From Actinoplanes oblitus (GTDB taxonomy: Bacteria > Actinomycetota > Actinomycetes > Mycobacteriales > Micromonosporaceae): 64,000 nt of DNA. Where the stretch lies: contig NZ_CP126980.1 of assembly GCF_030252345.1 (NCBI RefSeq), positions 7,393,501 to 7,457,500 on the forward strand. Reading direction: 5' to 3'. A program made the translations under genes and the position numbers. Shown here in pieces: positions 54,329 through 64,000 of the stretch. The notes below the pieces were generated by a model. The model saw only the letters and a list, made by a program, of their open reading frames with translations, made no database searches and was not told the DNA's origin. Within the stretch, counting starts at the first letter, position 1, and every line of letters starts with the position of its first letter.

Positions 54329-54709
54329 TCAGCGATCGATGCCGGCCAGAGTCTCCTGGAGCACCTGGTGCGCGGCCTCGTACTCGGCGATCTGCTCGGC
54401 CGGGGCCAGCCGCGCGGCGTTGGCGAGGGAACTTAGCACCGCGTCCACCGCCGGGTGACCGGTCTCCACCACCATCCCGTCCTCGTCGGTGCGGTAATGC
54501 GCCGCCGCCGGCACCGGCTCGCCCGGCGCCCCCGCGGGACGCGACCCACCCGGCGGCGGGCCGGGCCGGAACCCACCGGCCGGCGGCGCGGGCCGGAAGC
54601 CGCCCGGTGTCGCCCCCGGACGTGGCCCGCCGGGCAGCGGGCCGGGACGCTGGCCACCCTGGGGCGGGCCGGGGCGTGGACCGCCCAGTGCGGGGTTCGG
54701 GAACGTCAC
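54329..54709 (-). CDS. Small conserved protein with Pro/Gly-rich N-terminus
   Basis: 126 residues. The first 60 are repeats of the type GGPRPGPPQGGQRPG and GGFRPGPPPGG, predicted disordered. The last 60 (HPAVDAVLSSLANAARLAPA, EYEAAHQVLQETLAGID) form an amphipathic helical domain resembling the small protein encoded next to tlyA in other actinobacteria. Function unknown. It is 22 bases upstream of tlyA and 4 bases after the next gene, so it belongs to this operon. Confidence 0.78.
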   Translation of the reverse strand: MTFPNPALGGPRPGPPQGGQRPGPLPGGPRPGATPGGFRPAPPAGGFRPGPPPGGSRPAGAPGEPVPAAAHYRTDEDGMVVETGHPAVDAVLSSLANAARLAPAEQIAEYEAAHQVLQETLAGIDR

Positions 54710-54713
54710 GGAA

Positions 54714-55814
54714 TCACGCCTCCGGGGTCTCGGTCCGGCCGGTGCTCTCCGCCACCGGCTGCGACTTCTCGGGTTGAGCCTGACTCGGCACCTGCGCCGT
54801 CTTCTTCGCCGCCCGCTTGGCCGGCGCGCGCTTGGCCGGCGTCGTAGGTGGCAGCTCAGTCGCGGCCGCCGCCTCCTTCACCGCGCTGACCGGCGACGCC
54901 GCCGTCCCCTCCGGGGTCCCGACAGCCGGTGCGACGTCGTTTCCAGCGGCCGGAGCCCCCGCCTTGCGCGGCGCTCGCTTGGCCGGCGCCTTCTTGGCCG
55001 CGGCCTTCTTCGCCGCGGCCTTCCTGGCCGCCGCCTTCCGAGCCGGGCCGCTCGCCGCAGTGGTGGCCCCCGGACTCTCGACCGGCTGCCCCTCCGCCAC
55101 CGCCGCCGCGACCGCGTCCGCGGCCAGCTCGGCCGGCACCGTCCCGTTCACCCCGGCGGCCGGACCCGCCGAAGTGGATTTCCGCGCCGCCTTCTTGGCC
55201 GCCGGCGCCGTCTTGGCCGCCGGCGCCCCGGGTGCGGGCGCGTTACCGGGTGGGGTAGCCGGGGCAGTGCCCGCCGACGGCATCGCGTTCGGGGTGGCCT
55301 TCTTCACCGCTTTCTTGGCCAGAGCCTTCTTCGCCACAGCCTTCTTGGCCGGCGCCGAAGCCGCCCGCGCGGCAACCCCGGGCGCGCCGGCCCCTGGGGC
55401 GGCAGCGCTGGAAGCAGAAGCGCTGGAAGCAGAAGCGTCGGCAGTCCCCGGCCCGGAAGCCCCGGACCTGGCGGTAACCGCCCCCGGACCCCCCTCGGCC
55501 GCGTCCGCCCGAGCCTGCGCCTCCCGCAGCCTCTTCTCCAGATCGTGCACGCGCGTGGTCAACTCGGACACCTCGTCGGCGGTGGCCAGCCCGACCCGCC
55601 CGAGCGCGCGATCCACCTCGTAACGAACGATGTTGGTCAGCGCCTCACGGTTGGCGATGCCCGCCGAGAGCAGGTCCTCGACCAGCCCCTGCACCTGCGC
55701 CGCCGTCGCACCACCCCGGTTGAGCAGCTCACCGGCGACCTTCTGCGCCTTTTTCCGGGGCGTCTCGGTCAGCCCGAGCGCCAGGTCAAGATAAGCCCGC
55801 CATGCATCCGGCAT
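54714..55814 (-). CDS. Phasin-like protein with Lys/Ala histone-H1-like tail
   Basis: 366 residues. The N-terminal 110 residues are helical (YLDLALGLTETPRKKAQKVA, LLNRGGATAAQVQGLVEDLL, VSELTTRVHDLEKRLREAQA), like polyhydroxyalkanoate-granule regulator/phasin-family proteins of actinobacteria. The remaining 250 residues are Ala/Pro/Lys-rich with KKAVAKKALAKKAVKKA, RKAAARKAAAKKAAAKKAP and PAKRAPAKRAAKK blocks, the style of histone-H1-like DNA-binding tails. ATG 55814 follows GAGGAGGAGG. Binding to DNA, RNA or granules is inferred only. It is the first gene of the minus-strand operon leading to tlyA and nadK. Confidence 0.8.
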   Translation of the reverse strand: MPDAWRAYLDLALGLTETPRKKAQKVAGELLNRGGATAAQVQGLVEDLLSAGIANREALTNIVRYEVDRALGRVGLATADEVSELTTRVHDLEKRLREAQARADAAEGGPGAVTARSGASGPGTADASASSASASSAAAPGAGAPGVAARAASAPAKKAVAKKALAKKAVKKATPNAMPSAGTAPATPPGNAPAPGAPAAKTAPAAKKAARKSTSAGPAAGVNGTVPAELAADAVAAAVAEGQPVESPGATTAASGPARKAAARKAAAKKAAAKKAPAKRAPRKAGAPAAGNDVAPAVGTPEGTAASPVSAVKEAAAATELPPTTPAKRAPAKRAAKKTAQVPSQAQPEKSQPVAESTGRTETPEA

Positions 55815-55909
55815 GATCCCTCCTCCTCTCGCCGCGTCGGGTGCCACGCTACCGGCAGCCCCCGACAACTTCCTGAGGTACGGTGCTGGTGTCGCGAGGG
55901 GGGACGCCG

Positions 55910-56245
55910 ATGGCCACCGTGGACGAGTGCCGCACAGCCTTGCACGACCTGGCCGCGAAGCTCGCGGCGAACGCGGAGGCGCGCGGCAAGCTCGACCTCG
56001 ATCGGACGCTCGCCTGCCGGATCACCGACCTGGAGACCGCCTTCCACGGGCGGATCACCGGCGGCCTGCTGACCGACATCGCGGACGGCGACGACCCGAA
56101 GGCGAAAATCGCCCTGATCACCACCAGCGACAACCTGATCGCGCTGATCAACGGCCGGCTGGACATCACCCGCGCGATGGCGTCCCGCCAGATCGCCATC
56201 AAGGCGAACCCGTTCGACCTGCTCAAGCTCCGCAAACTCCTCTGA
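55910..56245 (+). CDS. SCP2 sterol-carrier-like domain protein
   Basis: 111 residues. The pattern ALHDLAAKLAANAEARGK, DRTLACRITDLETAFHGRI and DDPKAKIALITTSDNLIALI, ending MASRQIAIKANPFDLLKLRK, is that of small SCP2-type lipid-binding proteins. Such proteins bind lipids or acyl-CoA in the cytoplasm. ATG 55910 has GAGGGGGG upstream; a start 36 bases earlier is weaker. It is divergent from the phasin-like gene, with 95 bases between starts. Confidence 0.82.
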   Translation: MATVDECRTALHDLAAKLAANAEARGKLDLDRTLACRITDLETAFHGRITGGLLTDIADGDDPKAKIALITTSDNLIALINGRLDITRAMASRQIAIKANPFDLLKLRKLL

Positions 56246-57196: not shown

Positions 57197-58195
57197 TCAG
57201 AGACCCCAGTCGCGCAGGACTCCGGTGGCCGCATCCGAGCCGGCCTTGACGGCGGTGGCCGGGACCCCGTTCCAGGTGACGCCGCAGAGCAGGCGGAGGG
57301 CGTCGACCGCGTCGCCGGAACCGGACAGGGTCGCCCGGTCGCCGTCGTGGGTGAGGTGCCAGCCGTCGACCTCGGTTGCCGGGACCCGGGCCTGGTCCGC
57401 GGGGCGGAACAGGCCGGAGAGGTCGGCCGCGACGAAGGTCGGACGTCGCTCGGCGGGAGCGGACAGCAGATCGGCCGGTCCGCTGACGCCGGTGAGAACC
57501 AGCAAGCTGTCCATGCCCGCGGTCACCGCGCCCTGGATGTCGGTGTCCAGGCGGTCGCCGATCGCCAGCGGACGCTCCGCACCGGCCAGCGAGGCCGCGG
57601 TCCGGAACAGGGCCGGCTGCGGCTTGCCCACCACCACGTCCGGTTCGCGGTCCAGGGCGGTACGGATCACCGCGACCAGCGAGCCGTTGCCCGGCAGCGG
57701 GCCACGCGGGCTGGGCAGGGTGCGGTCGGTGTTGGTCGCGTACCAGGTGGCACCCGCACGGATGGCGAGCGCCGCCTCGGCGAGGACCTTCCAGCCGACC
57801 TCGGGACCGTACCCCTGAACCACAGCGACCGGGTTGTCCCCGGCCGACTCGACAGGGGTGAGCCCGGCGTCCCGCACCTCGCCGCGCAGCGCCTCCGCGC
57901 CCACCACCAGCACCGGCGAACCGGCCGGCACGTGCTCGGCGATCAGCGCGGCGGCCGCGCCGGCCGAGGTGAGCACCTCGGCCGGTGCGGCGCTGACACC
58001 CATGCCGGTGAGCAGGGCGGCCACCTCGCCGGCGCGACGGGACGCGTTGTTCGTCGCGTACGCGACAGCGGTCCCGTCCGCACGCAGCCGCTCGACCGCC
58101 TCGGCCGCGCCCGGGATCGGTTTGTCGATCAGGAAGACGACGCCGTCCAGGTCGAAGACGGCCAGGTCGTAGCCGCCGGCGAGGTGATCACTCAT
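57197..58195 (-). CDS. HAD-superfamily IIA hydrolase
   Basis: 332 residues. HAD motif I is [20 protein letters not shown], motif [12 protein letters not shown], motif [14 protein letters not shown] and motif [22 protein letters not shown]. The cap insertion between motifs II and III is type IIA, as in NagD and pyridoxal/phosphoglycolate phosphatases. It has about 70 extra C-terminal residues ([20 protein letters not shown]) that are not part of the core. It should hydrolyse a small phosphate ester. ATG 58195 overlaps the upstream TPR/RGG gene stop by four bases. Confidence 0.93.
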
Positions 58196-61041
58196 GCCTG
58201 CGACTGGTCGTCCGCCCGACCGGTGAACTCGTCGCCGGCCTTCTCGTACTTCTCGGTCTTCGGCTTCGCGGACTTCGCCTCGGCCGCCGGGACCTCGTCC
58301 CGCTCGGCGGTCAGGGCGTCGGTGTTGACGTCGGTGTCGGCCACCCGGGCCTCCGCCGCCTCGTCCTCGTCCTCGAAGTCCTCGTCGTCCTCGTCGTCGT
58401 CCTGGTCGGCGAGGTCGTCCTCCTCGAGGTCGTCCTCGTCGAGGTCGCCAACGCTGTCGACGTCGTCCTCGTCGTGCTCCGCCTCGGGCCGGCCGTCCGC
58501 GTCGCGGTCGTCGTCCTCGTCACGGTCGTCCCCGGCACGGTCGTCGTGCTGGGCACGCGCCTCGTCGTCGAGGTCCTCGTCGTCCTCGTCGTCGTCACCT
58601 TCGATGGTGACCCCGTCGAGCTCGAGGATCCGCTCCGCGGCGTCGGTGAGCTGCTCCTCGTCGACCGCGGCGGCCCGCCCGAACCACTCCCGAGCCTCGT
58701 CACGACGACCGGCTGCCAGCAGGGCATCCGCGTAGGCGTAGCGCAGGCGCGCCGCCCAGTCCGCGGTCTCCTCGCCGGTCAGCTCCTTGACCTGGAGCAT
58801 CGCCACGGCCGCGTCGTGCTGGCCGAGGTCACCACGGGCGCCGGCCGCCACGATCAGCAGCTCGATCGCCCCGGACTTCTCCAGGTTCGCCATGTCGGCA
58901 CCGCGGTACAGGTCGATCGCCCGCTCCGGCCGGCCCAGCGCCCGCTCGCAGTCGGCCAGCTCGGCCAGGTGGGTCTGCTTGCCGGTCATCCGGTGGTAGG
59001 TGCGCAGCTCGGCGATCGCCGTGGTCCAGTCCCCCGCCGCGTACGCCGCCAGGCCGACCGCCTCGCGCACCACGGCGATCCGGGAGGCCAGCCGCCGCGC
59101 CGCGATCGCGTGCTGCAGCGCCAGCTCGGAGTCCTCGTCGATGACGGTGCCGGCCGCCACCAGGTGCCGCGAGACCGTGTCGGCGACCTCCCGGGCCAGG
59201 CTCACCAGCTCCGCGCGGACCTCCTGGTCCAGGTCGGCCGCGTTGATCTCCTCGGGGATCTCCGGGGCCTGGAAGACGGCCTGGCCGTCCTCGGTGGTCT
59301 CCGGCTGGTCGCCGCGGAAGCCGCCCCGGTCCCGGTCGCCGCCGCGGAACCCGCCACGGTCGCCGTCCCGGTCACCACGGAATCCACCGCGGTCCCGGTC
59401 GCCACCCTGGTAGCCGCCCCGGTCCTGGGAGCCACCGCGATCGCGGTCGCCGCCACGGAACCCACCGCGGTCGCCACCACCCTGGTAGCCACCCCGGTCG
59501 CCGCCACGGTCACGGTCGCCGCCCCGGAAGCCGCCACGGTCGCCACCGCCCTGGTAGCCACCGCGGTCCCGGTCGCCGCCACGGAACCCGCCGCCCTGCG
59601 GCCGGTCACCCTGCGGCCGGTCACCGCGATATCCGCCGCCACCCTGGAAGCTCTCCCGGGTGCCACCGGTCCGGTCGCGGTCACCGCCCCGGAAGCCGCC
59701 ACGGTCGCCACCGCCCTGGAAGCCGCCACGGTCCCCGCCACGGTCACGGTCGCCGCCGCGGAACCCACCGCGGTCCCCGCCACCCTGGAAGCCGCCACGG
59801 TCACGGTCGCCGCCACGGAACCCGCCACGGTCGCCGCCACCCTGGTAACCCGGACGGTCGCCACCACGGAAGCCGCCCTGCGAACCACCACGGTCGTCAC
59901 GGTTGAACGGCCGGCGCTCGCCACCGCCCTGGAAGCCACCACGGTCGCCACCACGGTCACGGTCGCCACCACGGAAGCCGCCGCGGTCGCCACCACCCTG
60001 GAAGCCGCCACGGTCACGGTCGCCACCACGGAACCCGCCACGGTCGCCGCCACCCTGGTAGCCCGGACGGTCACCGCCACGGAAGCCGCCACGGTCGCCG
60101 CCACCCTGGTAACCCGGACGGTCGCCACCGCGGAAGCCACCGCGGTCGCCGCCACCCTGGTAGCCCGGACGGTCGCCACCGCGGAAGCCGCCCTGCGAAC
60201 CACCACGGTCGTCACGGTTGAACGGCCGGCGCTCGCCACCGCCCTGGAAGCCGCCACGGTCACGGTCGCCACCACGGAAGCCACCGCGGTCGCCGCCACC
60301 CTGGAAGCCGCCACGGTCACGGTCGCCACCGCGGAAGCCGCCACGGTCCCCGCCACCCTGGAAGCCGCCACGGTCACGGTCGCCACCGCGGAACCCGCCA
60401 CGGTCGCCACCACCCTGGTAGCCCGGACGGTCGCCACCGCGGAAGCCACCGCGGTCGCCGCCACCCTGGTAACCCGGACGGTCGCCACCGCGGAACCCGC
60501 CACGGTCGCCACCGCTCACGGAACGGTCGCCACCACGGAAGCCGCCCTGCGAACCACCACGGTCGTCACGGTTGAACGGCCGGCGCTCGCCACCGCCCTG
60601 GAAGCCACCGCGATCGCGGTCGCCACCACGGAAGCCGCCACGGTCGCCACCACCCTGGAAACCACCACGGTCGCCGCCACGGTCACGGTCACCGCCGCGG
60701 AAGCCACCACGGTCGCCACCACCCTGGTAGCCACCACGGTCACCGCCACGGAAGCCACCACGGTCGCCACCACCCTGGTAACCACCACGGTCACGGTCGC
60801 CACCACGGAACCCACCGCGGTCGCCACCGCCCTGGTATCCGCCGCGGTCGCGGTCACCGCCGCGGAAGCCGCCGCGGTCGCGGTCGCCACCCCGGAAGCC
60901 GGCCCGGTCGCGGTCACCCGACCGGTTGCCGCCCTGGTATCCGCCTCCATCGCCGCGGCGAGCGTCGCCGCCATCGCGACCGCGGCCCTCCCGGGCCTCG
61001 TCACGGTTGCTGGAGCCGCCGTCCTGCGGTCCTGTAGTCAC
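58192..61041 (-). CDS. Giant RGG-repeat protein with TPR-like domain and acidic tail
   Basis: 949 residues from GTG 61041 (GGAAGGA upstream). Residues about 25-572 are nearly pure Gly/Arg/Asp repeats: [23 protein letters not shown] and [11 protein letters not shown] units, several dozen copies. A higher-order unit including [13 protein letters not shown] occurs three times, near 59891, 60206 and 60560. Residues about 600-790 are helical TPR-like ([56 protein letters not shown]). The last 150 are Asp/Glu-rich. Conserved TPR proteins sit beside this HAD gene in actinobacteria; the RGG expansion is the unusual part. RGG tracts bind RNA and phase-separate in other organisms; that is inference here. 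Confidence 0.88.
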
Positions 61042-61132
61042 GGATCAGTCCTTCCAAGTACGGCGGCGGGCCCTCGGTGCGGGCGGCCTGGCGTCAAACA
61101 CAAAGTTACTAGGGAACGAAGTCATAAACGCA

Positions 61133-61167
61133 GTCGAGGGCCGACCCCAGGTGGGGCGGCCCTCGAC
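61133..61167 (-). terminator. rRNA operon terminator
   Basis: GTCGAGGGCC (61133-61142) and GGCCCTCGAC (61158-61167) form a 10-bp stem, with a second inner CCCC/GGGG pairing. It lies just after the 5S gene, in the direction of the minus strand. Confidence 0.8.
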
Positions 61168-61179
61168 CGTTACGTTGAG

Positions 61180-61297
61180 TCCGGCGGCGTCCTACTCTCC
61201 CACACCCTCCCGAGTGCAGTACCATCGGCGCTGGAGGGCTTAGCTACCGGGTTCGGAATGTAACCGGGCGTTTCCCCTCCGCTATGACCACCGAAAC
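61180..61297 (-). rRNA. rrf: 5S ribosomal RNA
   Basis: About 117 bases on the minus strand, from GTTTCGGTGGTCATAGCGGA (5' end, 61297) through the conserved CGCCCGGTTACATTCCGAAC and TAAGCCCTCCAGCGCCGATG to GCCGCCGGACT. The ends pair as in 5S helix I. This is a complete gene. Ends may be off by one or two bases. Confidence 0.95.
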
Positions 61298-61453
61298 AGC
61301 TATCAGCGCGGAACCAACCAGCAACCCGTATCCCTCTCCGGCACCCCAGCCGGCCCCGACATCATCGGAAGCCAACCAGAATCCCTGAGAAGAAACAGGG
61401 TGGTTGTTCGTTTGCTGTGAATCACACAGTGGACGCAAGCAGAAAATTTAGGG
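61298..61453 (-). other. 23S-5S spacer
   Basis: About 155 bases between 23S and 5S. They include TTGTTCGTTTGCTGTGAATC-type AT-richer stretches and no tRNA fold. Confidence 0.75.

Positions 61454-64000
<2,547 letters not shown>

Follow-up and report, generated by a model that had tools for sequence, protein, structure and literature searches.

A TPR protein with a long RG/RGG-type tract encoded directly behind an rRNA operon in Actinoplanes oblitus and related Actinomycetes

Long RGG-type disordered domains are, to our knowledge, usually treated as a eukaryotic feature. The RG/RGG domains of nucleolin, fibrillarin, DDX4/Vasa and proteins of the LAF-1 type combine glycine and arginine with aromatic residues, and some of these proteins also carry acidic stretches. 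The TPR fold, by comparison, is a general peptide-binding superhelix.

The closest described bacterial proteins are the mycobacterial Rv1691 and MSMEG_3754, the latter being the presumed orthologue of the protein analysed here. MSMEG_3754 was present in a crosslinked RNA-polymerase pull-down in a study whose DNA association test was negative (PMC7092591), and it also appears in the ClpC1 interactome (PMC10433963). Rv1692, the presumed neighbour in Mycobacterium tuberculosis, is a glycerol-3-phosphate phosphatase (PMC12722247), and a gene order of rrnB followed by tyrS has been described for mycobacteria (PMC10218544). More generally, prokaryotic RNA-binding proteins have low-complexity regions enriched in arginine (PMC6821194).

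The window, a stretch of 64,000 nt from the genome of Actinoplanes oblitus, contains a 949-aa coding sequence with a GTG start (58192..61041, − strand), preceded by an AAGGA ribosome-binding site (61049..61053, − strand) that also precedes the start in most of the family loci. The protein consists of an RG/RGG tract (residues 25–578; 59308..60969, − strand), a TPR core (residues 579–810; 58612..59307, − strand) and an acidic tail (residues 814–949, net charge −54; 58195..58602, − strand). The initial annotation had described just such an unusual protein, with a Gly/Arg/Asp/aromatic tract, a TPR part and an Asp/Glu-rich C-terminus, and our analysis confirms this anatomy. A 929-aa ORF on the + strand opposite the gene is probably a mirror image of the repeat.

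The tract spans 554 aa (G 43 %, R 21 %, D 15 %, F 7 %, Q 5 % and Y 2.5 %) and has no lysine and no tryptophan. It holds 70 RGG motifs, compared with a mean of 22 and a maximum of 37 in 1000 shuffles, and its commonest 12-mer occurs 18 times, compared with at most three times in 200 shuffles. Several RGG motifs follow one another at spacings of a few residues, for example within a single 13-residue segment, which is the pattern of RG/RGG-type domains. The short-repeat region had been placed at residues of about 25–572, and composition and shuffles support it with limits of 25–578. The three-fold higher-order repeat proposed for it also holds: three copies of a 14-residue long unit (60547..60588, 60193..60234 and 59878..59919, all − strand) follow one another, in translation order, at spacings of 354 and then 315 bases, and adjoining copies are identical at 68/75 and 73/75 bases. 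The likeness to the eukaryotic domains lies in the close spacing of RGG motifs and in glycine and arginine accompanied by aromatic residues; unlike them, the protein is bacterial, is fused to a TPR core and has no RNA-recognition or helicase domain, and we claim no homology. With 117 positive and 87 negative residues the tract is weakly basic, 76 D-R steps covering most of its 83 Asp. The proposal of opposite charges at the two ends thus stands for the acidic tail, whereas strongly opposite-charged ends can be rejected. A protein-level search for a similar tract elsewhere in the same genome gave one weak match (E 0.007; C1, about 5880960–5881262), consisting of GGDAERGGSQ repeats before an apparent membrane protein, and another at E 0.7; the former was the only other RG-like repeat match above that level, and we rejected a second tract of this kind in the genome.

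The TPR assignment of the initial annotation is upheld by the predicted fold, and not by the family models. The predicted core (pLDDT 96.7, 13 helices listed) is a tandem helix-turn-helix superhelix, and TPR proteins occupy the top rows when it is compared with the PDB, placing it by modelled fold in the TPR superfamily. No Pfam TPR family (TPR_19, TPR_2, TPR_14 and others) reached its cut-off, the best being TPR_19 with 22.6 of 25 bits, and no Pfam or NCBIfam family covered the core above cut-off. Searches for a specific PDB relative returned only designed and general TPRs by sequence and fold among the matches listed; the bacterial TPR proteins of known structure TTC0263, YrrB and MamA reached 12–20 % identity in the best rows, with no shared function shown. 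A phage origin of the core was rejected, there being no match among 50,697 phage records.

The core is widespread. It was found in 144/150 genomes of the family, in 280/295 Actinomycetes genomes in a search of the class (8 of the 15 misses belonging to one family, f87, with genomes of 1.2–1.8 Mb) and in 115/296 genomes of the phylum. Relatives with the core include Actinoplanes, Micromonospora, Phytohabitans, Dactylosporangium, Amycolatopsis, Saccharothrix, Streptomyces and Mycolicibacterium; 37 of 80 named loci were examined, and these were kept out of the statistics. Three genomes of one genus in the class (G362, G504 and G658; genus g54) each carry two copies of the core with equal or near-equal scores, perhaps duplicated together with the rRNA operon.

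The gene begins 138 bp downstream of a 5S rRNA (61179..61295, − strand) on the same strand, with the 23S rRNA (61453..64000, − strand, cut by the window end) further upstream. The initial annotation had let the gene end near the rRNA operon, which is the wrong direction, because it is the gene start that adjoins it. The rRNA neighbourhood itself proved broader than the window suggested. We compared 80 of the 144 family matches plus the window, 60 further loci of the class and 14 from other classes, these last picked without a rule, and counted a locus as informative if it showed rRNA or included at least 1 kb of upstream sequence (16 family, 11 other class and one outside locus were uninformative). 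Same-strand rRNA lay within 1 kb upstream of the open frame in 61/65 family and 45/49 other class loci (106/114 informative Actinomycetes loci), and in 8/13 informative loci of other Actinomycetota classes. The 5S strand matched the gene strand in all 108 loci in which a 5S was found, and the median distance from 5S to start was 100 bp (91 loci with a good start call). Two loci with a tract (L094 and L097) had no rRNA in view.

A strong terminator-like hairpin (61132..61168, − strand; z −2.8 for the whole intergenic stretch) separates 5S and gene in the window, and a GC-rich hairpin follows the 5S in nearly all of the intergenic regions read, among those listed. Streptomyces-like loci have a U-rich stretch after the hairpin and more room before the gene. 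In genus g31 (four loci) the 5S and the GTG are only 61 bp apart and the hairpin stops a few bases short of the ribosome-binding site, which suggests expression through the hairpin or from an overlapping promoter; these 61-bp cases were read by eye, automatic gap values having been left out as they mix branched structures.

Most of the mycobacterial loci share this neighbourhood. Five (L118, L121, L295, L304 and L311) lie beside 5S and two (L112 and L119) do not, and in a further one (L222) tyrS (TIGR00234) lies beyond the rRNA operon, in agreement with the described gene order. The Rv1691/MSMEG_3754 group thus resembles the window protein in its TPR annotation, in rRNA upstream and in a HAD phosphatase at the next gene number (Rv1692). 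It differs in having only about 30–100 aa before the core (start calls are uncertain) in place of the tract, and no acidic tail; the orthology of Rv1691 is presumed.

Elsewhere the tract is long and its repeats differ between the species compared. All 15 sampled genus genomes carry it (503–640 aa), and it measures 341–652 aa in 60 clean family sequences and 231–491 aa in 19 sequences with the inferred label Streptomyces-like, the loci from the rest of the class having been picked mostly for long open frames, which biases their lengths upwards. The comparison among relatives that the initial annotation suggested is thus answered in the affirmative for the sampled genomes of the genus. A short tract of 145 aa was found in Actinopolyspora (L298); three tracts (L086, L129 and L130) look broken or hold N, reflecting either biology or assembly error, and a Streptosporangium locus (L285) had an uninterpretable frame. 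The charge statistics leave out 21/81 family rows, 1/20 Streptomyces-like rows and 17/40 other rows, owing to contig truncation, N, or the want of a start with a ribosome-binding site; 7 of the 23 remaining other rows are shorter than 200 aa and were kept out of the basic-segment, tree and charge-pairing analyses.

Across these varied sequences the net charge is steady. The tract carried +29.6 (sd 1.9) in the 15 genus members and, as a raw value, +31.1 (sd 4.2) in the 60 family sequences, compared with an sd of 14.8 if signs were random. The basic segment carried +34.6 (sd 2.8) in the family, +30.7 (sd 2.6) in the 19 Streptomyces-like sequences and +37.4 (sd 5.5) in 16 other tracts, with 59/60, 18/19 and 13/16 values between 25 and 40. 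Outliers were L095 (+45) and L088 (+10, with its acidic block before the TPR) and, among the named loci, Pseudonocardia L271 (+50) and Actinoplanes xinjiangensis (+21 on 456 aa). Along a tree of 95 taxa, positive and negative counts change together (slope 1.08, r 0.977), because Asp sits in D-R steps beside Arg. Acidic residues touch a basic one in 83 % of cases in the 95 tracts, compared with 44 % in shuffles. Charge is also spread more evenly than in shuffled sequences: the evenness measure fell below all 30 shuffles in 92/95 tracts, and the median variance of net charge in 50-aa windows was 1.1 rather than 19.2. The C-tails, taken as a control, lacked acidic–basic pairing of this kind. Lysine makes up 0.9 % of K+R in family tracts, 12.6 % in the TPR and 27.7 % in the tail of the same genes.

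Part of this constancy is built into the Asp-Arg unit. As tracts lengthen, charge increases about half as fast as strict proportionality would give, and in tracts of at least 300 aa the coefficient of variation was 0.16 for net charge, 0.24 for charge per residue and 0.13 for the positive/negative ratio; charge per residue was accordingly rejected as the conserved quantity. The ratio is tighter still in the family set (0.05), and its smaller spread, together with the A. xinjiangensis outlier, weakens the case for selection on net charge itself. A bootstrap from each tract's own sequence, in blocks of 50–100 aa, was exceeded in the genus and Streptomyces-like sets and not in the family set. What relatives in many families keep is the bulk chemistry and not the order of residues: a weak, even positive charge, Asp beside Arg, surplus Arg in RGG, and aromatics.

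The tandem structure and fast turnover of the tract would suit a highly soluble spacer, or entropic bristle, with no specific RNA role, in which duplication of an Asp-Arg-Gly unit varies the length under mild selection against strong charge or aggregation. Asp-Arg pairing alone couples the positive and negative counts, and mycobacteria nearly lack the tract. However, a spacer has no need of lysine exclusion or aromatic residues, families that differ in unit and length have similar mean charges, and a costly segment of 300–650 aa has been retained. We regard a pure spacer as unlikely.

The acidic block is also recurrent, and it is movable. It was present in 60/60 clean family sequences, weak in 6/19 Streptomyces-like loci and missing in four loci of family f84 and in L271 and L274. 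Among 12 relatives picked mainly for a short tail or odd charge, eight had the block between tract and TPR and four (L183, L184, L271 and L274) had no such moved block; this intermediate position is seen in Saccharothrix, Lentzea, Actinosynnema, Kibdelosporangium, Stackebrandtia and L110, where the C-tail is reduced or absent. The idea of a self-associating polyampholyte accordingly keeps its acidic partner throughout the family, and loses a fixed terminal position and, outside the family, a constant presence.

Glycine codons in the tract (GGC/GGT/GGG/GGA.59/.34/.05/.02) resemble those of ten ribosomal and translation genes of the same genome (.61/.32/.04/.03), whereas four neighbouring genes differ (GGG.12–.37 versus.05 in the tract). 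Arg CGT reaches 53 % in the tract versus 26 % in the ribosomal and translation set, and across relatives the tract exceeds the remainder of the gene in CGT at 113/117 loci and in GGT at 98/117. The resemblance is suggestive of high expression; GC3, at.72 in the tract, is low beside the.91 of the ribosomal set, so part of the codon pattern may stem from mRNA structure or from the history of the repeat.

Our best reading, held tentatively and with somewhat less than even confidence, is that the gene encodes an abundant, rRNA-operon-linked disordered scaffold that would contact RNA and carries a TPR adaptor. The tract may engage structured RNA at numerous points, each contact being weak; nascent rRNA, pre-ribosomes or transcribing polymerase would be the simplest targets. 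Within the molecule, the acidic block would compete with RNA and so tune binding, the TPR may recruit a folded partner, and the place behind the 5S would tie dosage to rRNA transcription; condensate formation would be a further step beyond RNA contact. We count in its favour the rRNA adjacency inside and outside the class with the invariant strand of the 5S, the steady basic-segment charge, acidic–basic pairing, lysine exclusion and ribosomal-like glycine codons, as well as the polymerase pull-down of MSMEG_3754 and the arginine-rich low-complexity regions of prokaryotic RNA binders. The MSMEG_3754 data say little about the tract, since mycobacterial loci have short N-terminal extensions. Several observations count against it: mycobacteria keep the core and its rRNA linkage without a long tract, so the core does not need the tract; L094 and L097 have a tract and no rRNA in view; and the Asp-Arg unit effect, the scaling with length, the tight ratio, the family bootstrap and the A. 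xinjiangensis value all bear on the charge argument. The coupling to a HAD gene, with occasional fusions to it, also points away from a scaffold for RNA.

That coupling, which the initial annotation had noted, is close in the family. The downstream gene (57197..58195, − strand) overlaps the stop of the TPR gene in an ATGA and encodes a HAD-IIA phosphatase (TIGR01460, 128.3 bits versus a cut-off of 100.15), and the HAD gene is overlapping, fused or within 400 bp in 76/81 family loci. TPR and HAD share one open frame in L102, whose HAD part was confirmed and which keeps a 341-aa tract of net +29, in L124, and in five database proteins (P0012, P0017, P0032, P0040 and P0047); TIGR01460 describes the neighbour or fusion partner and not the TPR protein itself. 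The main rival reading is built on these data: the TPR would hold a phosphatase of the glycerol-3-phosphate type, as the presumed neighbour Rv1692 is described (PMC12722247), the tract would cluster or solubilise the enzyme, and the rRNA position would be inherited. Beyond the family, however, where rRNA adjacency persists, HAD lay overlapping or within 400 bp in just 14/60 other class loci and 0/14 loci outside the class (tblastn with the window's HAD on limited downstream sequence), and the arginine-only RGG chemistry and ribosomal-like codons are left unexplained. We consider this partnership a doubtful explanation of the whole locus, and one compatible with an RNA-contacting scaffold.

Given its general peptide-binding character, the TPR fold could also suit an adaptor role in proteostasis, serving ClpC1 or chaperones, in which the tract would act as a tail for delivery or recognition. 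The listing of MSMEG_3754 in the ClpC1 interactome agrees with this; in that study, however, only one candidate was degraded though 5/6 of those tested bound, and MSMEG_3754 is not among the named tested ones (PMC10433963). Such an adaptor would leave the rRNA linkage unexplained, and we judge it very improbable.

The scaffold reading also has a bolder form, which we think rather unlikely as a whole. Read-through of the rrn operon would make a charge-balanced RGG scaffold in proportion to rRNA synthesis, and this scaffold would gather nascent rRNA and transcribing polymerase in a nucleolus-like assembly; the acidic block, on either side of the TPR, would imitate RNA from within the protein and so keep the assembly fluid, and selection would act on a net charge near +30. 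If so, the last gene of the rRNA operon would in effect be a protein gene.

Our work places an RGG-type domain in a near-universal Actinomycetes gene directly behind the rRNA operon. Singly, TPR proteins and RGG domains are familiar; in a word-match search of open-licence papers, no title or abstract start described the tract or the rRNA linkage, and within that scope we found neither an experiment on a long-tract member nor a description of their union, with a charge-buffered tract, in an rRNA-linked gene. Among the relatives, tract length (231 to 652 aa) and repeat order vary and net charge and evenness stay similar, a natural data set on which bulk properties of a disordered region are visible to selection. 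Should the protein act on rRNA or polymerase, RNA–protein assemblies in bacterial ribosome synthesis would become testable through a single gene deletion in a laboratory Streptomyces.

Three nearby ORFs complete the view of the window. A 126-aa ORF (54329–54709, − strand) between tlyA-like and phasin-like genes has Gly/Pro/Arg repeats in its N-terminal half and had no NCBIfam match. The 384-aa neighbour (54714–55868, − strand) has a phasin-like stretch (PF05597, 24.2 of 28.8 bits) and a long Lys/Ala-rich tail of the AKKA type. We take this tail to recall histone H1-like bacterial proteins. On the opposite strand, a 120-aa ORF (55883–56245, + strand) may encode an SCP2-type sterol-carrier domain.
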